DNA from: Nitrospirota bacterium
Lineage (GTDB): Bacteria > Nitrospirota > Leptospirillia > Leptospirillales > Leptospirillaceae
Direction: 5' to 3'
Assembly: GCA_021801345.1 (NCBI GenBank)
Contig: JAJYYA010000021.1
Coordinates: forward strand, 1 to 64,000
Length of the DNA: 64,000 nt
Positions within the stretch are counted from its first letter, which is position 1; each line of letters opens with the position of its first letter. The notes under the pieces were generated by a model, which saw only the letters and a list, made by a program, of their open reading frames with translations, was not told the origin of the DNA and ran no database searches. Of the stretch, positions 836 to 13,250 are shown piece after piece. The position numbers and the translations under genes are program-made.

Positions 836-2293
836 TCAACAGGAACTTCCCCCATTGTCCAGGGGAATAACGAGGATCACCTCTCCGGGAGTTTTTTGCC
901 CTGACGTCAGGTAATCCGGAGAGATCTCGTTTGCCGCCAGGCTTCCCTCTTCCTTTTTTTCGGCCTTTCCTGAAAAGTCGAGGGGGCGAGTCGCCGGAAA
1001 GAGCCCATTGATTATCGCAGTGCCATCAATCTTCCCCGCCGCATCCTCGCCGGAATCAAAGATATGCTCCTGGATCCTCTCCGAACACTTGTTCCATGCG
1101 CTCACGGGGATGAACATGTAGTTCCTGGCGATCACTCCGACCGCCACATGGCAGGTGAGGTAGTTGGCGAGATTGGCGTCGCCGCAGACCTGGATTGCGG
1201 CCGAGGTGTAAAGCTTCCTGAGGTCGTGGGGGGAGAGGGGCCTTTGCCCGGAAAGCTCCGGGTACTTCGCCGCAAGCCGTTCGAGGATCCGGAGCGAGAC
1301 TCCCCGGATATCACGGATCCGGAACAGGGGGCGGTCGCTCTCCGGACCGGGCGGGGTCATGTGTACGACCTGTTGGAGAGTCTTCCTGAACAAGGGGGGC
1401 ACGGGGAGGATGTAGTCTCTCCGGTTTTTTGTCTCCTTGAGCGAGATCACGAGATCGTTGGCATTGACAAAACTCAGATGGCCCGGTGTCAGTCGCTTTC
1501 CATCGCCATGGCGCATCCCGGTCAGAAGAAGGAAGAGCGCGAATCCGGCCGCATCGCGCACGCGGGGATTGACGTCGGGGTCCTGGTTCAGGCGGAAGGC
1601 TTCTCGACCCCAGTCAGCGACAACGGAGGGATTCATGTAGTAAGCCGGCGGAAGCTCCCGGACGCGATCCCGGGAATGAAGGGCCTTCCGGCGGGGATTG
1701 CTGAAGGGATTCTCTCCGGAAAAGAGCTTGATGTCTTTCATGTAGTTGAAGATCGCCCGAAGGATCCTGATCGTGGTATTTCGGACCGTCTCCCCCCGGA
1801 ATCGCTCCCGGCTATCATCCCGGACCTGGACGATCCCGTTTGATATGCCGATGGCCGTCCTTTCGTCGAATGTTGCGAGCGGATGGTCGAGATAGCCGGC
1901 GCAATAGCGCGTGACGGTGTATCGGATATCCTTGACGGTCCTCGGCCGAAGAAGAGTTTTCTTGGCTTCGACATAGGTTTCGAGGGCTTCCCCGAGGGTC
2001 AACGAGTCCTTTGGGTGGGAAGGGGGGAGAGTGGAAGCGGAAGGATCGGAGATCTCCTGTCGTCTTGAGAGGATCTCGGAGGCCCGGAGGCGGGCCTCCG
2101 CCACGGAGATATCGGGAAAGCGTCCGATCATGTAGTGGATCTGCTCTCCCTCCTCGCGATAGCGGACCATGAAGCTCTTTTCCCTGACCGTCAGACGAAC
2201 ATAGAGGCCCGGGCAGGTCGTATCGTAAATGTCGGTAAAACCTCCGGAGACAAAGAGAGTCTCTATCAGGGAGTCGGTCAGGGGGCCTTCCAG
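836..2293 (-). CDS. Tyrosine recombinase/integrase, apparent CTG start
   Basis: This is a phage-type integrase that would carry out site-specific strand exchange through a tyrosine nucleophile. The catalytic set is visible in order: Arg in TGMRHGD, Lys in LKETKNRRDY, HDLR, a His in LTCHVAVG and Tyr in ARNYMF. The first ATG (2170) cuts the N-terminal domain in half. Upstream the frame stays open to 2408 and encodes an integrase-like start (LTDSLIETL, then GLYVRL). No ATG, GTG or TTG occurs there. A CTG at 2293-2291 lies four bases after a full AAGGAGG (2304-2298), so I chose it, giving about 485 residues. A start at 2170 or a broken 5' end are the alternatives. It is flanked by direct repeats of the coiled-coil gene; no attachment site is recognised. 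Confidence 0.75.
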   Translation of the reverse strand: MEGPLTDSLIETLFVSGGFTDIYDTTCPGLYVRLTVREKSFMVRYREEGEQIHYMIGRFPDISVAEARLRASEILSRRQEISDPSASTLPPSHPKDSLTLGEALETYVEAKKTLLRPRTVKDIRYTVTRYCAGYLDHPLATFDERTAIGISNGIVQVRDDSRERFRGETVRNTTIRILRAIFNYMKDIKLFSGENPFSNPRRKALHSRDRVRELPPAYYMNPSVVADWGREAFRLNQDPDVNPRVRDAAGFALFLLLTGMRHGDGKRLTPGHLSFVNANDLVISLKETKNRRDYILPVPPLFRKTLQQVVHMTPPGPESDRPLFRIRDIRGVSLRILERLAAKYPELSGQRPLSPHDLRKLYTSAAIQVCGDANLANYLTCHVAVGVIARNYMFIPVSAWNKCSERIQEHIFDSGEDAAGKIDGTAIINGLFPATRPLDFSGKAEKKEEGSLAANEISPDYLTSGQKTPGEVILVIPLDNGGSSC

Positions 2294-2297
2294 GGAT

Positions 2298-2304
2298 CCT
2301 CCTT
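2298..2304 (-). promoter_or_regulatory. Shine-Dalgarno that suggests the CTG start
   Basis: The minus strand reads AAGGAGG, a full match to the anti-SD, with four bases before an in-frame CTG. The later ATG at 2170 has no comparable site. This is the main reason for extending the recombinase gene. Confidence 0.5.
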
Positions 2305-2588
2305 GGGGGACGGAGATGTCGGCGAAAGGAGGAGCTTCTTCCTGTTGCTCAGCGTCAGAGAGAGCGACTGATTGCCGTTCCTTCGCAAGAACAGGGACGC
2401 AGGATCCTCAGAGGAAGACTAACCCAGGCCATGGCCCGGATGCAATCCTGTCGGTTTTTTTCCTGTGGGGATGACGATAAGATCCTTTTTCGTGATGACG
2501 GCAGAGGAGAAAGACGCTGAGGTCAAACGATCATGAGTCGCTCGGTTCCCCCTTGTCTCGCCGCTCTCCCATGAGGTAAGATTATCCC

Positions 2589-3056
2589 ATGTTTGACACT
2601 CACACGTACGTCAAAAAGCTTGAATTGGCCGGGTTCACCGAAACTCAGGCCGAAGTCCAGGTCGAGGCTCTTTCTGCGGTCCTGGAAGAGATCAAGGAGA
2701 CGCTTGCGACAAAGGACGATCTTCTCATTATGGAGGAACGTCAGTCTGGGCAGATGCGCTCTCTGGAGGAACGTCAGGCCGGGCAGATGCGCTCTCTGGA
2801 AGAACGTCAGGCCGGGCAGATGCGCTCTCTGGAAGAACGCCTGACCGGGCAGATGAATACTCGCTTTGCGCAGGTGGATGCCCAAATTCATTCTCTGGAG
2901 GAACGCCTGACCGGGCAGATGCGCTCTCTGGAGGAACGCCTGACCGGGCAACTGAGAAGTGCCATCGCCGAGTCTCAAAACACGACCCTGAAGTGGATTG
3001 TCGGTCTTTTTGTGACGCTCCTCGGTGTCTTTATCGCGCTGCTCAAGATTCACTGA
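2589..3056 (+). CDS. Hendecad-repeat coiled-coil membrane protein (DUF1640-like), copy B
   Basis: This 155-residue paralogue of the 95-529 protein has an identical N-terminal head and an identical C-terminal membrane segment. The rod has about seven 11-residue units in a different order: several Q-rich units (LEERQAGQMR) come before the LTGQMN, VDAQIH and LTGQLR units. The two proteins therefore differ almost only in repeat number and type, which suggests duplication followed by slippage within the 33-base array. The ATG has the same upstream GAGGTAAG. No function can be assigned; membrane-tethered oligomer formation is an inference from the sequence pattern. Confidence 0.8.
   Translation: MFDTHTYVKKLELAGFTETQAEVQVEALSAVLEEIKETLATKDDLLIMEERQSGQMRSLEERQAGQMRSLEERQAGQMRSLEERLTGQMNTRFAQVDAQIHSLEERLTGQMRSLEERLTGQLRSAIAESQNTTLKWIVGLFVTLLGVFIALLKIH
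2730..2957 (+). repeat. 33-bp in-frame tandem repeat, variant array
   Basis: About seven 33-base units encode xLEERxxGQMx-type undecapeptides. Three consecutive units are nearly identical (ctggaagaacgtcaggccgg type). Compared with copy A, the order and number of unit types differ. Confidence 0.85.
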
Positions 3057-3330: not shown

Positions 3331-3420
3331 GGTTCCTGCTTCGCAGAGGGCCTTATTGCGCCGTTCTCCACAGGCTTGACTTCCGGAGGAACTCTCCGTA
3401 GGACCGCGATGCGCGGTCAA
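3331..3420 (-). ncRNA. Candidate omega-RNA / right end of the tnpB element
   Basis: TnpB proteins use a guide RNA made from the 3' end of tnpB and the element's right end (established for IS200/IS605 and IS607 TnpB). Here a perfect hairpin (7-base arms gaccgcg/cgcggtc, 3402-3418) overlaps the tnpB stop. A second stem rich in TCC/GGA follows, and then GAAGCAGGAACC at 3342-3331. Limits and function are inferred. Confidence 0.3.
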
Positions 3421-4569
3421 TCCGACGGCCGAAGATTCCTGGCCGCGTTCACGTCCCGATCATGGATCGTTCCGCAATCCGGGCAGATCCATTGCCGGAC
3501 GGAGAGCGGCATTTTGTCCTGGACTGCTCCGCACTCCGAGCAAGTCTTGCTCGACGGGAACCACCGGTCTGCGACAACCACCCGTCCACCACGTCGTTCG
3601 GCCTTATACTCCAGCTTGCCTCCGGAACTCGAAAAAACTCATGTCGGCGATGGACCGGGCCAGACGGCGATTCTTCAGCATCCCGCGCACATTCAGACTC
3701 TCGATTCCGATGGTATCGAATCGACCTGTAAGATCCGTCGTCAGTTTGTGCAAAGCGTCTTGCCGGATATTGGCAATCCGGGCATGGAGCCGGGACAGCT
3801 TGGCCCTGGCCTTTTTCGCGTTCTCCGACACCGGTAGACGCACTCCTTTCGGGAGGGGCGCATCGGGGGTCAGTCCCATTTTCATCTTTGCGGCCTTGTG
3901 CTTGCGAGACAGGCTCCGGGAAAGCCGCCTCTGTCGCTTGATCAGAGCCCGGTGCGGTTTTGGACCGATGACTTTCTCCCCCGTGGAAAGCGTCGCCAGC
4001 GCCGTGATCCCAAGATCGACTCCGACCGCGCCTTGGTTTTCGGCGGGTCTTTTGGATCGATCTTCCCATTCGACGGCAAGACTGACAAACCAGCGGTCGA
4101 CCACACGGGAGACGGTAGCCGACTGAATCTTTCCGGAGAATCGAAGGGATTCGTTCATCCGGACCCATCCGAGAAGTGGAATTCGGATCTTCCGGTCCCG
4201 GACTTCGAATTGGTCATTCGTGAGACTAAAACTGTCGTGAACGCCTTTCCTGTGAAACTGCGGACACTGGCTTCGACCTTCAAAGAAGTTCCTGAAGGCG
4301 TCCCCCAACTGGATGATCACCATCTGCGGGGCGTTCTTCGTGACTTCCAGCATCCAAGGGAACTTTTCCCGCTTGAGGGCGTTGAGCTGCCGACGGAGAG
4401 CGGTCTCTGATGGTTTGGGAAGAGAGGGATCGGCCTTGTGCGCATGGTATTGCCGGTTCCACTCGGCCAATGCCCAGTTGTACGCGAAACGGGCGACTCC
4501 GCACGCCTTCCGGAAATACGTCTCCTGAGCATCGTTGGGATCGAGATGGATCTTGTGGGCAACGATCAT
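3417..4569 (-). pseudogene. tnpB: tnpB, RNA-guided nuclease of the IS607 element, single frameshift
   Basis: TnpB is the RuvC-type, RNA-guided endonuclease ancestral to Cas12. The first frame (3604-4569, 321 residues) holds the N-terminal region and RuvC I (GVDLGITALATL) and RuvC II (IGIESLNVRGM). It stops early after EFRRQAGV. Skipping one base near 3617-3624 restores the expected continuation EYKAERRGG. After that come the zinc finger CSEC...CPDC and the final RuvC aspartate in HDRDVNAARN, ending at 3417. All catalytic residues thus survive, split across two frames. The start overlaps the tnpA stop. The frameshift could be a recent mutation, programmed frameshifting or a sequencing error. 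As read, the truncated product lacks RuvC III and should be inactive. Confidence 0.85.
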
Positions 4570-5192
4570 TCTTTGGCCTCTTCGACAGACTTCCTGATTC
4601 CGTCCAGCAGCTTCCGGTTCTTGTGACTACGACTCCCGTAGAGCCGGGCCGAAAAAACCGAGACGATTTCCAAGACATCCTCCGCCAAGTCTTCCTCGAA
4701 TGTCATGTCCTCGCCCTGGTTGAGGATGACCACCTCGACCTTCTTGGCCTCGCAGATAGCAAACACCAGTTCGGCCCCGAAGCGCAACAACCGGCCCTTG
4801 TGGGTGATGACCAGACGCCCCACTTGTTCCGCGATGATGTCGTTCAAAAGGCGCTTCAAGCCTTTCTTGTGAGTGTTCATCCCTGAACCGAGATCTGAAA
4901 TGACTTCGAAGGTCCAGCCTTGACGTGCACAGTACAGTTCTAAAACCTGTTTCTGTCGTTCCAGATCGTCTTTCTGGTCGTGGCTCGACACGCGGGCATA
5001 GGCGACAGTTTTTCGGGCGGACTCGTCCGACGTCCGGAACCACTCCGGGCGCAACTTCGCCAGGTCGTACCGGCGATGCCCGCCCGCCGTGTGCTCGGGC
5101 ACCAGTTTTCCGCTCACTTCCCAACGCCGAAGCGTCGTCACGGAGACGCCCAGGGATTTTGCTGCATCACTTATTCCTACTAATCTCTCCAT
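4566..5192 (-). CDS. tnpA: IS607-family transposase TnpA (serine recombinase with MerR-like HTH)
   Basis: This 208-residue protein begins with a MerR-type helix-turn-helix (residues about 5-50, SDAAKSLGVSVTTLRRWEVSGKL). A small serine-recombinase catalytic domain follows, with the nucleophile region YARVSSHDQKDDLERQ and the arginine-containing motif KGRLLRFG. It is predicted to excise and integrate the element through a serine-DNA intermediate, without target duplication. The length and domain order are those of IS607 OrfA. It overlaps tnpB by four bases, which implies translational coupling. The reading frame is intact, so the element could still move even though tnpB is broken. Confidence 0.9.
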   Translation of the reverse strand: MERLVGISDAAKSLGVSVTTLRRWEVSGKLVPEHTAGGHRRYDLAKLRPEWFRTSDESARKTVAYARVSSHDQKDDLERQKQVLELYCARQGWTFEVISDLGSGMNTHKKGLKRLLNDIIAEQVGRLVITHKGRLLRFGAELVFAICEAKKVEVVILNQGEDMTFEEDLAEDVLEIVSVFSARLYGSRSHKNRKLLDGIRKSVEEAKE

Positions 5193-5352: not shown

Positions 5353-5739
5353 TCACACAAGAAGGATGAAGTCGCCATAACGGGCCAGCTGACTGTCGTG
5401 TGTCATCAGAATGAGGGGCTCGCTCAATGCCTGGGCGACAAGGATGCGGTCGAAAGGATCCGGGTGCAGGGAGGGGAGCTCTTCAACTTTTGCCGCATGT
5501 TCCGGAGAGACGGGGAGAAACCGGTAACCCGATTTGCGAAAATGATGCAGAGACTCAGCGCCTGAAACCGGCATGGTCTCCCTCTTCAATGTGTGCTTAA
5601 TAGAGATCTCCCAGACCGTAGCCGCACTGATGTAGATGGCATTTTTCGGGTCGAGGATCAGATCGCAGGCTTTGGAAGGGAGCCGGGGATCATCGACTAT
5701 TGCCCAAAGAGCGATGTGGGTGTCCAGCAAAAGTCTCAA
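5353..5739 (-). CDS. vapC: PIN-domain toxin (VapC family)
   Basis: This 128-residue PIN-domain protein is a predicted metal-dependent ribonuclease toxin. The acidic residues of the PIN fold are visible: Asp in LLDTH near the N-terminus, Glu in VWEISIK, Asp in HPDPFDRILVAQA and Asp in MTHDSQ. It begins inside the last codons of the upstream antitoxin gene (four-base ATGA overlap), which fits a co-translated type II toxin-antitoxin pair. The cellular RNA target cannot be read from the sequence. Confidence 0.88.
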   Translation of the reverse strand: MRLLLDTHIALWAIVDDPRLPSKACDLILDPKNAIYISAATVWEISIKHTLKRETMPVSGAESLHHFRKSGYRFLPVSPEHAAKVEELPSLHPDPFDRILVAQALSEPLILMTHDSQLARYGDFILLV

Positions 5740-5984
5740 GGCTGTGGAAGGCCATGAAAGGAGGCAGCAATGGCTTCGTTTTCCTCATCGATGTTGTCCG
5801 GGATGTAAAACAGGCCTTTGGCTACGCCGATTCGGCGGGAGGGCGGCATCTCGTCAAGTCCGACAAGTTTGGCAATGGGATGTCCATGTCTTGCAATGAC
5901 GATCTCTTTTTCGGAGCCGGCCTCCAGTTCCGCGACCAGTCTCGACAGATGTGTTTTTGCTTCAAAGATCTGGACAATCTTCAC
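5736..5984 (-). CDS. vapB: Phd/YefM-like antitoxin
   Basis: This is the cognate antitoxin of the PIN toxin. The fold signature is KIVQIFEAKTHLSRLVAELEAG, followed by EIVIARHGHPIAKL, typical of the Phd/YefM DNA-binding N-terminus. The C-terminal part (IPDNIDEENEAIAASFHG) is the probable toxin-neutralising tail. I chose the GTG at 5984 because family members start at this motif. A GTG at 6041 would add 19 unconserved residues and lies right next to AAAGGA, so it cannot be excluded. The gene overlaps the toxin gene by four bases. Confidence 0.8.
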   Translation of the reverse strand: MKIVQIFEAKTHLSRLVAELEAGSEKEIVIARHGHPIAKLVGLDEMPPSRRIGVAKGLFYIPDNIDEENEAIAASFHGLPQP

Positions 5985-6065
5985 TGTTTTTGCGGGAAGC
6001 CCCGAAGACTTGTCCGGGGGGGATAGCGCCTCTCCCGCCACTCCTTTATCTTTGCTATCTTGTAA

Positions 6066-6376: not shown

Positions 6377-8092
6377 TTAACTGTCGATCAGTCTTCGTTC
6401 GGGATGTGAGGCAGAAGAGGCGGCACGTGCGTGATTCCTCTGGGTCCGGGCTGGGGGGATGAGGGAGAGCCAGAAGAAGCCGTAGGGGCTCAAGGTAAAA
6501 TGAAAGCGGGCGCGGGCAATGAGGGGGAAGGGGGTTTTGTCGAACATCTCCACGATCGAATAGCCCCTGTAGCGCGAGAGGTCGAGCGTGACCGACTCCG
6601 CCCGGTCCGAGAGGTTGTTGATGATAAGGGCGACATCCTTCCCCATCTCCCGGAAGTAAGCAAGAATCGAACGATTCTTCGAGTGAAGAAAGTGAAGCTC
6701 CCCCCTTCCGAAGAGGCGAGCGCTCTGGCGGACCGCGATCATCTGCCTGAGCGTGTTGAGAGGGCTGGTGGGGAAGCGAGCCTGATTTTCCACATTGACA
6801 ACCTGATAGCCGTAGATGGGGTTCTGGATGACGGGGGAATAAAGGTCGGACGGGTTGGCCCGGGAGAAGCCCCCGTTCTTGTCCGAAGACCACTGCATGG
6901 GGGTCCGGACCCCGTTCCTGTCTCCGAGGTGGACATTGTCTCCCATGCCGATCTCGTCTCCGTAGTACAGGATCGGGGTTCCGGGCAGAGTCAGAAGAAG
7001 GCTGTGCATCAAGTCGATCTTGCGCCGGTCGTTTTGCATGAGAGGGGCCAGCCGTCGCCTGATGCCGATGTTGAGTCTCATTCGGGGATCCTGGGCGTAG
7101 GTCGACCACAGATAGTCCCTCTCCTGGTCGTTGACCATCTCGAGGGTAAGCTCGTCGTGGTTTCTCAGGAAGATGGCCCACTGGCACGCGCTGGGAATTT
7201 TGGGAGTCTGATCGAGGATGTCGATGATCGGACGGTTGTCGCTCTTAGCGATCGCGATGAAGAGCCTCGGCATGAGGGGAAAGTGGTAAGCCATGTGGAA
7301 CTCGTCCCCTTCTCCGAAGTAGGGCAGAACATCCTGGGGCCATTGATTGGCCTCCGCAAGAAGCATCCGGTCGGGAAACTCGCGGTCGACCTCGGCTCTC
7401 AGACGCTTCATGAAGGTGTGGGTCTCCGGAAGGTTCTCGCAGGAGGTGCCTTCCCGCTCGAAGAGATAGGGGACGGCATCGCAGCGCAACCCGTCTACTC
7501 CCAGTCCGAACCAGAATTTGACGACCTTCAGAAGCTCCTCCTGAACCTTCGGGTTCTCGAAGTTCAGGTCGGGCTGGTGGTGGAAGAAGCGATGCCAGTA
7601 GTACTGCCGGGTCCTCGGCTCCCATGTCCAGTTCGACTTTTCCGTGTCGCTGAAGATGATGCGTGTTCCGCGGTATTTTTCGGGGGTATCGCTCCAGACG
7701 TAGTAGTCCCTGTAAGGGGAGGAGCGCGAGGAGGCGGCCGAAACAAACCACGGATGCGTGCGCGAGGTATGGTTTAAAACCAGCTCGCTGATGACTCGAA
7801 GTCCCAGGTCGTGGGCCTTGTCGATGAACCGTCTGACGTCGTCCATCGACCCGTAGGAGGGGTGGATGGTGGTGTAGTCCCGGATGTCGTAGCCGTCGTC
7901 GCGAAGAGGGGAGTCTGTGAAAGGCAGAAGCCACAGGGCGGTAACGCCGAGATCTTTGATGTAGTCGAGCTTTTCGATGAGACCCGGAAAGTCGCCCACG
8001 CCGTCGTGGTTTTTGTCGAAGAAGGACTTCACGGGAATTTCGTAGATGATAACGTCCTTGTACCAGTCCGGGGCGCCGTGGAGGGCGGTCAC
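6377..8092 (-). CDS. treS: Trehalose synthase (GH13 maltose alpha-D-glucosyltransferase)
   Basis: TreS interconverts maltose and trehalose in the cytoplasm. The translation (571 residues) shows the GH13 regions in order: DGVGDF near the N-terminus, SELVLNHTSRTHPWF (region I), DGLRCDAVPYLFEREG (nucleophile Asp), LLAEANQWPQDV (acid/base Glu) and FLRNHDELTLE (transition-state Asp). YGDEIGMGDN and RTPMQWSSDKNGGFS are typical of this subfamily. No maltokinase domain is fused. The GTG start at 8092 overlaps the stop of the upstream gene (GTGA) and is preceded by AAAGGA. The frame is open further upstream, but that sequence overlaps the other gene and is not conserved. Translation is probably coupled to that of its catalytically degenerate neighbour. 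Confidence 0.9.
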   Translation of the reverse strand: MTALHGAPDWYKDVIIYEIPVKSFFDKNHDGVGDFPGLIEKLDYIKDLGVTALWLLPFTDSPLRDDGYDIRDYTTIHPSYGSMDDVRRFIDKAHDLGLRVISELVLNHTSRTHPWFVSAASSRSSPYRDYYVWSDTPEKYRGTRIIFSDTEKSNWTWEPRTRQYYWHRFFHHQPDLNFENPKVQEELLKVVKFWFGLGVDGLRCDAVPYLFEREGTSCENLPETHTFMKRLRAEVDREFPDRMLLAEANQWPQDVLPYFGEGDEFHMAYHFPLMPRLFIAIAKSDNRPIIDILDQTPKIPSACQWAIFLRNHDELTLEMVNDQERDYLWSTYAQDPRMRLNIGIRRRLAPLMQNDRRKIDLMHSLLLTLPGTPILYYGDEIGMGDNVHLGDRNGVRTPMQWSSDKNGGFSRANPSDLYSPVIQNPIYGYQVVNVENQARFPTSPLNTLRQMIAVRQSARLFGRGELHFLHSKNRSILAYFREMGKDVALIINNLSDRAESVTLDLSRYRGYSIVEMFDKTPFPLIARARFHFTLSPYGFFWLSLIPPARTQRNHARAASSASHPERRLIDS

Positions 8093-9774
8093 GAGGGGGA
8101 TCCTTTCCTGTTCGTGGGCTCCGGCCGGGAAGGCGGCCGGACAAGTTCGAACCACATGAAGGCGTAGGGGGTCAGTGTCATGAGGTAGGGGTGGCGGGGA
8201 ATGCGCGGAAAGAAGGCCCCGCCGAAAAGCTCCCTTGGAAGGAGCGTGGCGTATTCTCCCAGATGGAGAAGTCCGCAGATGGACGATTTGGAGAGGTTGT
8301 GGACAAAGAGACAGAGGGAGTGCTCCCTTCGACGGACAAAGGCGAAAAGGGCGGGATGAGTCGTCTCGACCGTTCGGAATGTGCCGTGGGAGGTCAGGGC
8401 CAAATGGCGGTTTCTCGTCTCGATCATCCGCCGGATATTGGAGAGGTGGGAGTCGCTGAAGCGCTCCTGGCTTTCCACGTTGATCATGGTGTAGCTGAAG
8501 GCCGGATCGTCGATGACCGGATTGTAGAGCTCTTCGGGGTCGGCCTGGGAGAATCCGGCATTTCGGTCGGAGGACCATTGCATGGGGGTTCGGACCGTGT
8601 TGCGATCGGGAAGGTGGGGGTGGTCTCCCATGCCGATCTCGTCTCCGTAGTAGAGGACCGGCAGCCCCGGGAAGGTGAGAAAAAGACTTGAGCAAAGGAG
8701 CATGCGCCGTCTGCCGTTTTCCATCAGCCGGGCCGGGCGGGAAAGAATCGTTCGTCCCGTAGAGGCTGCCGAAGGAGAGGGGAGGACATCGCCTTCCTCC
8801 TCCTGAAAGCTCTCGAAGGTCTCCTCGGAGCGCTCCCGCAGGTCAAGGACCCATCGGACGGGAAGTTCCTTTTTTGCGTGGGCCTGCTTTTCTCCAGAGA
8901 AAAGAGCCTGGGAAAGGGGCTCTTTGTTTTCCTCCCGCACGGCCCTGAGGAGGGAAGGGAAGAAGCCGTTGAAGTGATAGAAGATCCGCGGGTCTTTTTG
9001 AAGGGCGCCCCGGAGAGGTGTGCCTGTTTCGAGGAGAAAAACCCGATCCGGGAAAGCGCTGCGGAGGGGGGCGACGATGTCGTAAATTTCTCTGGCAGGC
9101 TGCTCCACCGGCTCGATTCCCCGGCGCCCCTGTTTATTGAGCCGGCCGGACCCGGCAAGGCGAAAGCCGTCGAGTCCCAGTGTGAGCCAGTGTTCGAAAA
9201 CCCTTCGGATCTCTTCTCGAAGCTCCGGATCTCCGTAGTTCAGGGATGGTTCCGACTTTCTGTCCTGATACCAGTAATAGCGCCCAGTGTCGTCGTCTTT
9301 TGCCCAGCTCTGGAGTTCAAGGCTCTCCTGCGAGGAGGGCGGGGCAAGCATTCTGTCGGCCCAGAAGTAGCTGTTTCTGAAGTTGCGACCATGGGGTTTC
9401 CGGGAATCGAGGAACCATGGGTGGTGGGTGCTGGTCGCATCGATCGGGAGGGAGGCGAGGACCCGAAGTCCTTTTGCGTGGGCCGCTTCGAAAAGAAGCA
9501 GAATGTCGGACAAGGAACCGAGCGCGGGGTCAGGACGCATCCAGTCGACAAGGGGATGTCGGGCGTTGCCCGGAAAGGATTGGAACGGGCAGTTCAGAAG
9601 GATGCCCTTGACCCCCAGGCTCTCGATATACCCAAGCCTGTCGAGGATGCCCTGAAAGTCTCCAATGCCATCGCCGGCATGGTCCTGGAAGCTTCTTATG
9701 TAAATCTCGTACAGGACTCCGTGGGAGATCCAGTCCGGTGTCTCAGTCACGGGGACTCCAAAGCGAATAGGCAT
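8089..9774 (-). CDS. Catalytically degenerate TreS/alpha-amylase-like protein (GH13 pseudoenzyme)
   Basis: This is a 561-residue full-length homologue of the adjacent trehalose synthase. It opens with TPDWISHGVLYEIYIRSF and keeps YYGDEIGMGDHPHL and RTPMQWSSDRNAGFS. The active site is gone: region I reads SLPIDATSTHHPWF instead of LVLNHTS, the nucleophile Asp is replaced in DGFRLAGSGRL, and the NHD motif is replaced by LRERSEET. Only the acid/base Glu (FLLETG) remains. Hydrolase or transferase activity is therefore unlikely. The reading frame is intact, with a good ribosome site (AAGGATGAG) and four-base coupling to treS, so it is probably functional as a partner or carbohydrate-binding subunit. 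That role is an inference. Confidence 0.85.
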   Translation of the reverse strand: MPIRFGVPVTETPDWISHGVLYEIYIRSFQDHAGDGIGDFQGILDRLGYIESLGVKGILLNCPFQSFPGNARHPLVDWMRPDPALGSLSDILLLFEAAHAKGLRVLASLPIDATSTHHPWFLDSRKPHGRNFRNSYFWADRMLAPPSSQESLELQSWAKDDDTGRYYWYQDRKSEPSLNYGDPELREEIRRVFEHWLTLGLDGFRLAGSGRLNKQGRRGIEPVEQPAREIYDIVAPLRSAFPDRVFLLETGTPLRGALQKDPRIFYHFNGFFPSLLRAVREENKEPLSQALFSGEKQAHAKKELPVRWVLDLRERSEETFESFQEEEGDVLPSPSAASTGRTILSRPARLMENGRRRMLLCSSLFLTFPGLPVLYYGDEIGMGDHPHLPDRNTVRTPMQWSSDRNAGFSQADPEELYNPVIDDPAFSYTMINVESQERFSDSHLSNIRRMIETRNRHLALTSHGTFRTVETTHPALFAFVRRREHSLCLFVHNLSKSSICGLLHLGEYATLLPRELFGGAFFPRIPRHPYLMTLTPYAFMWFELVRPPSRPEPTNRKGSPS

Positions 9775-9896: not shown

Positions 9897-10129
9897 CTCC
9901 AAGGGCTCAATTCCAGTCGTCTGAGTTTTTCAGGAATACCTCGAAGGCATGTTCTGTCATTATTGCCTTTATTTAAAATATTATTATTTTATTTTTTAAT
10001 GTATATCATGTTTGTTATTAAAATGTTTTTATTTAATAAAAATATTTTTTGTTGAATTTATTTACTAATTAATAGTAGCATGGCTCTTCGTTTTTAATTT
10101 CTAAAAAAGAAAGGAAGGGAAAGGTTCGT
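9897..10129. other. AT-rich intergenic region
   Basis: Bases about 9958-10080 are almost entirely A and T (for example ttatttaaaatattattatt), in strong contrast to the GC-rich surroundings. The region separates the divergent TreS operon and the AAA+ activator. Many promoter-like hexamers occur by composition alone, so none can be trusted. No sigma54-type GG/GC element was seen. Confidence 0.6.
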
Positions 10130-11191
10130 ATGGAATTCGATTTTAGAAAGATGATTGTGGGTGAGGAAAATCTTGAAGAAGTTCTTTGTGCGTCATCGGA
10201 AAGAATGCGGGAGGTAGCGGCTGAGATCAGGCTCTATGCTCCGTTGGACTTTCCTATTCTGATCGAAGGGGATTCTGGAACCGGCAAGGAGCTTGTTGCC
10301 AGGGCGCTTCACGATTTGTCGGGACGTCGTCCCTCTCCTTTTTTGGCGATCAACATTGCCGAAGGGTCGGACACCCTTTTTGAAAGCAATCTTTTCGGTC
10401 ATAAAAAAGGAGCCTTCACCGGCGCTGACCATGCTCGACCCGGAATTATCGAACAGGCGATGGACGGAACTCTTTTTCTCGATGAAATCAACAGCCTTTC
10501 GAAGTCACTTCAGCCAAAGCTGCTTCGAGTCCTTGAGGAAAAAGTCTACTGGCCCGTAGGTGCAACCGCTCCTGTCAGCACTTCCGCCCGATTTCTTTTT
10601 TCGACCAATCAGAAGCTTGCAAAAATGACAGACAATGGGCAGTTCAGGGAGGATGTCATGTATCGGCTGGGTCGGACGATCCGATTGCCTCTCCTGCGGG
10701 AACGGCAAGAGGATATCCCGGCTCTTGCCAAGAGGCTGATTGCTGAGTCGAGCCGGAAAATTTTTGAATCGATTTCGCGTCGACAGGGAGAGTCCGGAGC
10801 GTGGAATGCAAACTTCAAGACCCCGCCGGTTTTGAGCGAGGGGGCCCTGTTGAAGATGCGGAGCTATCCATGGCCGGGAAACATAAGGGAAATGAAGGTT
10901 GTGGTGGAAAGAGCGGTTCTTGTATGTCGTAATAAGACGATCCTTCCCGAACACATTGAATTTCCCTACGCGACGGAGACCCGCCTGGAAAAATATGATG
11001 CCGCGCTGGAAACCTTCTCCCAAGGCTATTTTTCCCGGGTTCTCGATTTGGCTGGAGAAAACTTTCGTCTGGGAATGTTGCTAACCGGCATGTCCGAGAC
11101 AAGTTATCGGAGAAAAATCCGAAAGTATCGAAAAAACAAAATGCGTGACAGAAATGAGAAATATGAGAGCGATGAGGGAGAGGACAGCTAA
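10130..11191 (+). CDS. Sigma54-dependent transcriptional activator lacking a sensor domain
   Basis: This 353-residue bacterial enhancer-binding protein consists almost only of the AAA+ core. Walker A is GDSGTGKE, the sigma54 contact loop is GAFTGAD, Walker B is LFLDEI, and the arginine-finger region is FREDVMYRLGRTIRLPLLRER. PWPGNIREMK marks the end of the core. The last 60 residues contain a Fis-like helix-turn-helix (FRLGMLLTGMSETSYRRKIRKY). There is no receiver, GAF or PAS domain before the core, so activity is probably controlled by a partner protein or by expression, as in PspF (analogy). The ATG follows AAAGGAAGGGAAAGG. The target promoter is not evident here. Confidence 0.88.
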   Translation: MEFDFRKMIVGEENLEEVLCASSERMREVAAEIRLYAPLDFPILIEGDSGTGKELVARALHDLSGRRPSPFLAINIAEGSDTLFESNLFGHKKGAFTGADHARPGIIEQAMDGTLFLDEINSLSKSLQPKLLRVLEEKVYWPVGATAPVSTSARFLFSTNQKLAKMTDNGQFREDVMYRLGRTIRLPLLRERQEDIPALAKRLIAESSRKIFESISRRQGESGAWNANFKTPPVLSEGALLKMRSYPWPGNIREMKVVVERAVLVCRNKTILPEHIEFPYATETRLEKYDAALETFSQGYFSRVLDLAGENFRLGMLLTGMSETSYRRKIRKYRKNKMRDRNEKYESDEGEDS

Positions 11192-11250
11192 GCTTTCCTG
11201 GGAACTTTTGTCGCCCACATAAAGGTATTTGAAAGAAGGCCAGATTATTC

Positions 11251-11279
11251 TTGACAATCGTTTTCGTGGAAAGTATAAT
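11251..11279 (+). promoter_or_regulatory. Strong sigma70-type promoter for the tRNA-tuf-secE-nusG block
   Basis: TTGACA (11251-11256) and TATAAT (11274-11279) are both perfect consensus hexamers with the ideal 17-base spacer. They lie about 135 bases before tRNA-Tyr. This is the strongest promoter seen in the window and suits a stable-RNA and elongation-factor operon. Confidence 0.9.
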
Positions 11280-11413
11280 TCCGGTTTGTCTTCGTTCTGA
11301 TTTGCCTATTTTCAAGGGTGGCCAAGGAAGACTTCGGATAGTCAGCAGGATTTATGTGTCTGACTGGAAAATGTCTCCCCGGTTCCACGGCAATGCTTGA
11401 TAGGGCCTGTTAG

Positions 11414-11498
11414 GGGGAGGTTCCCGAGTGGACAAAGGGAACAGACTGTAAATCTGTCGCCAGCGGCTTCGGAGGTTCGAATCCTCCCCTCCCCACCA
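11414..11498 (+). tRNA. tRNA-Tyr (GTA)
   Basis: Acceptor arms ggggagg/cctcccc pair fully. The anticodon loop ctgtaaa gives GTA. The T arm is ggagg-ttcgaat-cctcc, and CCA is encoded. The 85-base length with a long variable arm is typical of bacterial tRNA-Tyr. Confidence 0.97.
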
Positions 11499-11531
11499 CA
11501 TAAGGAAATTGGTTTGCGCGTTTTTAAGCAT

Positions 11532-11606
11532 GCGGGAATAGCTCAGCGGTAGAGCGCCAGCCTTCCAAGCTGGACGTCGCGGGTTCGAATCCCGTTTCCC
11601 GCTCCA
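11532..11606 (+). tRNA. tRNA-Gly (TCC)
   Basis: Acceptor gcgggaa pairs with ttcccgc. The anticodon loop around cttccaa gives TCC. The T loop is ttcgaat, and CCA is encoded. It lies between tRNA-Tyr and tRNA-Thr in the same transcription unit. Confidence 0.97.
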
Positions 11607-11654
11607 CCTACTATTGATGGTTGTTTACCCGACTTTTTGGGCCGGTCGCATCTT

Positions 11655-11730
11655 GCCCTTGTAGCTCAGTTGGCAGAGCACATCCTTGGTAAGGATGAGG
11701 TCACCGGTTCAATCCCGGTCAAGGGCTCCA
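11655..11730 (+). tRNA. tRNA-Thr (GGT)
   Basis: Acceptor gcccttg pairs with caagggc. The anticodon loop ttggtaa gives GGT. The D arm has agctcagttggcagagc, and CCA is encoded. It is followed 46 bases later by tuf, the common bacterial tRNA-tuf arrangement. Confidence 0.97.
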
Positions 11731-11776
11731 TTGTTCTTTTTCGTTACCACGTGGTCAATCTTATCTGGAGGTTCAA

Positions 11777-12976
<1,200 letters not shown>

Positions 12977-12998
12977 CTTTTACTGAAAGGAATGACTG

Positions 12999-13148
12999 AT
13001 GCGCGAGATCATCACCCTGGCCTGCACCGAGTGCAAGGACAGAAACTATTCTACGATGAAGAATAAGCGAAACAACGCAGAGAAGATCGAACTGAAAAAA
13101 TTCTGCAAGAAATGTCGTGGTCACAAGGTTCATAAGGAAACGAAGTAA
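12999..13148 (+). CDS. rpmG: 50S ribosomal protein L33
   Basis: This 49-residue protein of the large subunit begins [12 protein letters not shown] and carries two CxxC pairs (CTEC and CKKC), so it is the zinc-ribbon form of L33. It lies between tuf and tRNA-Trp, ahead of secE, the usual position of rpmG in bacteria. The ATG follows GAAAGGAA. Nothing suggests that it is a zinc-independent paralogue. Confidence 0.96.
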
Positions 13149-13152
13149 TCCT

Positions 13153-13229
13153 AGGCCAGTAGCTCAATTTGGCAGAGCTCCGGTCTCCAAAACCGGTGGT
13201 TGGGGGTTCAAGTCCCTCCTGGCCTGCCA
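13153..13229 (+). tRNA. tRNA-Trp (CCA)
   Basis: Acceptor aggccag pairs with ctggcct. The anticodon loop tctccaaaa gives CCA. The T arm has gttcaag, and CCA is encoded. It sits four bases after rpmG and just before secE, a common bacterial order. Confidence 0.97.
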
Positions 13230-13250
13230 ATGAAAAGGTGAGGTGTTTTG

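Follow-up and report, generated by a model that had tools for sequence, protein, structure and literature searches.

In the 64,000-nucleotide stretch of Nitrospirota DNA analysed here (the window), we found a minus-strand integrase gene whose protein begins at CTG 2293, to within about 3 codons, and not at the first ATG of its frame (2170). This placement is well supported. Apart from its start the protein appears, judged by its residues, to be a typical P4-like tyrosine integrase that has the usual catalytic set. Initiation at CTG is very rare, and we put the probability that this is a complete gene with a used, inherited CTG start at about 0.5. Should translation use the CTG, the few natural CTG starts would gain a recombinase from a distant phylum; if it results from mutation, the gene would capture a mobile element in the course of being silenced, beginning with its start codon. 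Under either reading, the beginning of the protein belongs at about 2293.

The frame ends at 836 and is open up to TGA 2410-2408, a span of 523 sense codons. Read codon by codon, its first ATG, GTG or TTG is ATG 2170 at codon 80, preceded by 79 sense codons that hold none of the three. The Shine-Dalgarno (SD) sequence AAGGAGG is followed by ATCC and then by the CTG, in frame with the integrase, and from this CTG the gene reads through 485 codons plus stop with no lesion (Table 1). An earlier note had described a startless frame down to the stop at 2408 with ATG 2170 as its first start, which the codon-by-codon reading confirmed, and a CTG at 2293 four bases after AAGGAGG, for which the coordinates proved right. 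Its claim that the first ATG falls inside the N-terminal domain is also borne out, the corresponding residue 42 cutting through the arm domain.

Table 1. Coordinates of the integrase gene and of the elements around its start, with the evidence for each
Feature	Position	Strand	Evidence
Predicted P4-like tyrosine integrase	836..2293	-	Pfam, PHROG, invariant R261/K289/H356/R359/H382/Y392
CTG, probable start codon or mutated remnant	2291..2293	-	homologue starts, profile position -3
Shine-Dalgarno AAGGAGG, 4 nt before the CTG	2298..2304	-	sequence, shuffle test, same spacing elsewhere
Candidate anti-SD TCCTCCTT, predicted to pair with AAGGAGGA at 2304-2297	2326..2333	-	prediction only
First ATG, rejected as start	2168..2170	-	no SD, inside arm domain
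Arm-type DNA-binding domain (PF13356 positions 1-78)	2036..2281	-	profile; fold match to 3jtz

The assignment to the integrases is based on several matches. The Pfam Arm-DNA-bind_3 match has an E-value of 1.6e-9 and 38.2 bits against a cut-off of 27, and it is also above the cut-off in a whole-genome search. The Phage_integrase match (E 7e-4, 19.9 bits) lies below the curated cut-off of 27.1, and the match to the PHROG integrase family reaches E 8.7e-21. Counted from the CTG, R261, K289, H356, R359, H382 and Y392 do not vary across the 17 aligned proteins (alignment A4, which L023 entered without its first residues) and also in A1. We take these to be the catalytic R-K-H-R-H-Y positions of the integrase, and the protein may be a working enzyme. 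Compared to P4-like island integrases, the gene differs in having no canonical start and no tRNA or attachment site seen adjoining it, the nearest tRNA being at 11414.

Homologue starts, the Arm-domain profile, the predicted fold and codon composition together place the start at about 2293. We aligned homologues with MAFFT in three modes, keeping 25 upstream codons for each, and all 16 start at residues 38-41 of the frame, where CTG 2293 is residue 39. Without the upstream flanks, two modes placed the first Met of 13 of the 16 homologues at residue 1 and the third placed that of all 16 at residues 11-14. We read this scatter as an end effect, though it counts against a clean alignment.

The PF13356 profile gave 24 matches in 61 genomes of the phylum, the own genome included, and 21 of them, among which is the integrase studied here, begin at profile position 1-3. 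In each of the other 20, a canonical start lies at the domain or ahead of it. For 18 of these 20 full-length arm-domain integrases the canonical start is found at profile position -5 to 0, and CTG 2293 falls at -3. Three matches beginning at profile 12, 20 and 41 (L133, L129 and L130 respectively) were set apart: L133 has a GTG at profile -1, and in L129 and L130 a stop interrupts the domain region, with no start ahead of that stop.

Codon composition was scored with log-odds derived from 103 of the genome's long frames, with the integrase left out. The region 2293-2171 has 0.174 per codon compared to an in-frame chunk average of 0.141, and the region 2407-2294 has -0.029 compared to an off-frame average of -0.142. 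The latter value is intermediate, being higher than 75 % of the off-frame chunks but than only 10 % of the in-frame ones, and the cumulative score rises no further from a point between about 2293 and 2326. A longer N-terminus was rejected, 2407-2294 being low as coding sequence, though above the off-frame average. Neither of the two remaining upstream frames, read by eye, contains an integrase-like beginning.

The structure predicted from the CTG has a mean pLDDT of 66 overall and of 71-90 per ten-residue block over residues 1-80. Its modelled arm domain spans residues 4-81 counted from CTG 2293, with helix 7-12, strands 20-23, 30-34, 39-47 and 50-58, and helix 64-76. This fold is shared with the arm domain of the HPI integrase, a P4-like island integrase (3jtz, 3rmp). 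Model residues 4-81 superpose on 3jtz 2-78 with a Z of 11.9 and an rmsd of 1.6 over 76 residues, and the 3jtz start is within about two residues of CTG 2293. Identity in the aligned arm domain is 28 %, and the sequence match alone is weak (E 0.055).

We compared the SD-CTG arrangement to what chance would give. Of 20,000 dinucleotide shuffles, 0.22 % gave a 7-nt SD ahead of some NTG or ATN codon within residues 36-43, and 0.1 % gave one ahead of a CTG; for a 6-nt SD the same test gives 1.2 %. Across 129 long frames of the genome, AAGGAGG is found 3-9 nt upstream of 1 in-frame CTG out of 999 and RGGAGG upstream of 9 out of 999 (CTG 2293 excluded). The bare GGAGG-N4-CTG pattern GGAGGNNNNCTG is not enriched, with 3 occurrences in the window against 3.57 expected. 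At least 60 startless codons are found in 19 of the 129 long stop-to-stop frames from 188 kb of this genome, the integrase included. A Pfam domain at E <= 1e-5 is present in 5 of the other 18, in every case after the first canonical start. Because the bare motif is not enriched and extensions lacking a start are frequent, neither counts as evidence on its own; it is the position of the SD-CTG pair, not the motif, that is unusual. Among 22 GGAGG-type genes of a crude gene set, 5 share the 4-nt SD spacing, and two integrases from relatives (L118 and L119) have it before an ATG.

One explanation for the CTG is that an ATG, GTG or TTG start recently mutated, leaving a young pseudogene or a trace-level leak. 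We consider this a real possibility, if short of even odds. The CTG is one base away from each canonical start, and the relatives that we could find do not use it. Exact-peptide scans of genome and viral contigs gave no close orthologue and none was found in phages, and a plasmid search gave three records at 22-27 % identity. Neither 100 genomes, including the own one, nor 395 genomes of the phylum (a set that again holds the own genome and shares members with the first) contain another match to the integrase above 30 % identity. Profile scans found 56 IMG/VR loci at 23-30 % identity and 4 loci in genomes, the highest at 38 % over 59 residues. We dropped 15 of the 56 IMG/VR loci because the contig ends before the start, and 4 exact duplicates among the resulting 45 loci (41 IMG/VR, 4 genome), which left 41 distinct distant homologues, many of them near-identical and hence not independent.

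The start codons of these 41 homologues are GTG in 33, ATG in 5 and TTG in 1, this lone TTG having an ATG three codons before it; the remaining 2 are frame-broken. None relies on CTG, and a canonical start is present in 39 of the 41, as in the 20 phylum matches to the profile. The two frame-broken homologues, L040 and L087, were considered as startless and rejected, both having a GTG in another frame. An integrase on a 727-kb plasmid of Salmonella Senftenberg (NZ_LN868944) and the 56 IMG/VR loci share domain order and start position with the integrase studied here, but at about 20-30 % identity and with a GTG or ATG start. Being mostly 20-30 % identical, the homologues show the position of the start and not the codon inherited by this lineage, and their canonical starts would lean mildly towards mutation.

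A recent mutation would also fit with the signs of decay nearby, where the TnpB of an adjoining IS607-like element is frame-broken, and with the truncated or frame-broken copies among relatives (L129 and L130; L040 and L087). In stretches from four relatives we did not find the region next to the treS-like genes; it therefore looks accessory. Against a recent mutation, the 485 codons hold no other lesion, the catalytic residues are kept and so is the strong SD. Conversely, we count against an inherited CTG the canonical starts of the homologues, the frame-broken TnpB neighbour and the promoter scan, which found no promoter-like site for the integrase gene. The earlier note had offered a rare natural CTG start that keeps expression low or a mutated 5' end, to be told apart by an ATG at this point in orthologues. 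The start near 2293 has stood, and the search returned no close orthologue, only distant homologues with GTG or ATG starts, most of which share too little identity (20-30 %) to mark this copy as mutated.

Initiation at another non-canonical codon is improbable. Both candidates, CTG 2281 (AAGG, 4 nt) and ATT 2230 (GGAGGT, 9 nt), have an SD-like stretch, and the profile match opens at CTG 2281. The SD of CTG 2281 is only 4 nt long, however, and ATT 2230, with its 6-nt SD, corresponds to residue 22; a start there would cost the arm domain its first helix and part of its first strand. It is likewise improbable that the start codon reflects a sequencing or assembly error: the genome is a draft of 73 contigs and the gene sits close to a contig end (position 1), at a distance of about 0.8-2.3 kb and between two near-repeats, but there is no direct sign of error and the rest of the frame is clean. 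Translation from ATG 2170 is scarcely credible, for although it is the first canonical start and gene finding limited to ATG, GTG and TTG yields a 444-aa ORF from it, it has no SD and removes about half of the arm domain (the first helix and strands 20-23 and 30-34, clipping strand 39-47), and the stretch lost is coding-like.

CTG starts behind strong SDs are already known, and the integrase would be another. The rep gene of RepFIB, described for F-like plasmids in PMC11983097, has a CTG start, with the SD GGAGG in pO157. Both genes have a CTG behind a strong SD, and the proteins are unrelated; according to that account the rep CTG is backed by N-terminal analysis and a CTC mutant, compared to sequence alone for the integrase CTG. 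Its authors suggest that the CTG gives just enough expression. As cited in the same paper, CTG is used by 20 of nearly 85,000 annotated genes and yields expression about tenfold below TTG. Another CTG start is reported for Salmonella Rhs-CT (PMC7043789), and one CTG-start ORF is described in a phage without an identifiable integrase (PMC3338817). In reported cryo-EM structures, CUG pairs weakly at its first position with an initiator tRNA variant (PMC11497404).

On the reading of an inherited CTG start, CTG 2293 would be the only plausible initiation site of the gene. The strong AAGGAGG would place the ribosome there and partly offset the weak codon, and the integrase would be made at a low level. 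This low expression is suggested by what has been published on genes that start with CTG.

The output may be reduced further by a hairpin predicted to cover the SD. In the minimum-energy fold an 8-nt anti-SD, TCCTCCTT, pairs with AAGGAGGA. Six folds of transcripts containing the anti-SD leave the SD 2-8 % unpaired, and three folds of shorter transcripts leave it 24-44 % unpaired. Shuffling the 100 nt upstream recreates the anti-SD element in 1.5 % of cases, and the fold of the start region is no more stable than shuffles (z -0.02). If it forms, the hairpin would hide the SD and thereby lower expression; as a post hoc prediction it is a weak lead only. We find it conceivable but unlikely that the gene is under a double translational lock, in which the CTG start caps the output and the SD/anti-SD hairpin is a second restraint. 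The hairpin would then be absent from shorter transcripts or opened by some signal, and promoter choice or RNA refolding would switch recombination on. Such a lock would mean that a natural non-canonical start serves to meter a recombinase.

The integrase is flanked by two tandem copies of a CCDC90-like coiled-coil gene (95-529 and 2589-3056, plus strand), which are 88 % identical in protein and differ in the number of 11-residue repeat units. These are the sole long repeats flanking the integrase, and the contig ends at position 1. The IS607-like element occupies 3420-5192 on the minus strand. Its TnpA, with resolvase and MerR domains, is intact in frame, and its TnpB is split, the TNB zinc-finger part (3420-3581) being in another frame than 3607-4569. 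It is followed by a PIN toxin and Phd/YefM-type antitoxin pair (5356-6041, minus strand). A second, diverged copy of the two treS-like genes of the window (6377-9774) is found on another contig of the same genome (C35, L142, about 9960-13250). The two genes there have 62 % and 68 % identity, and in the first an in-frame TAG falls within the matched part.
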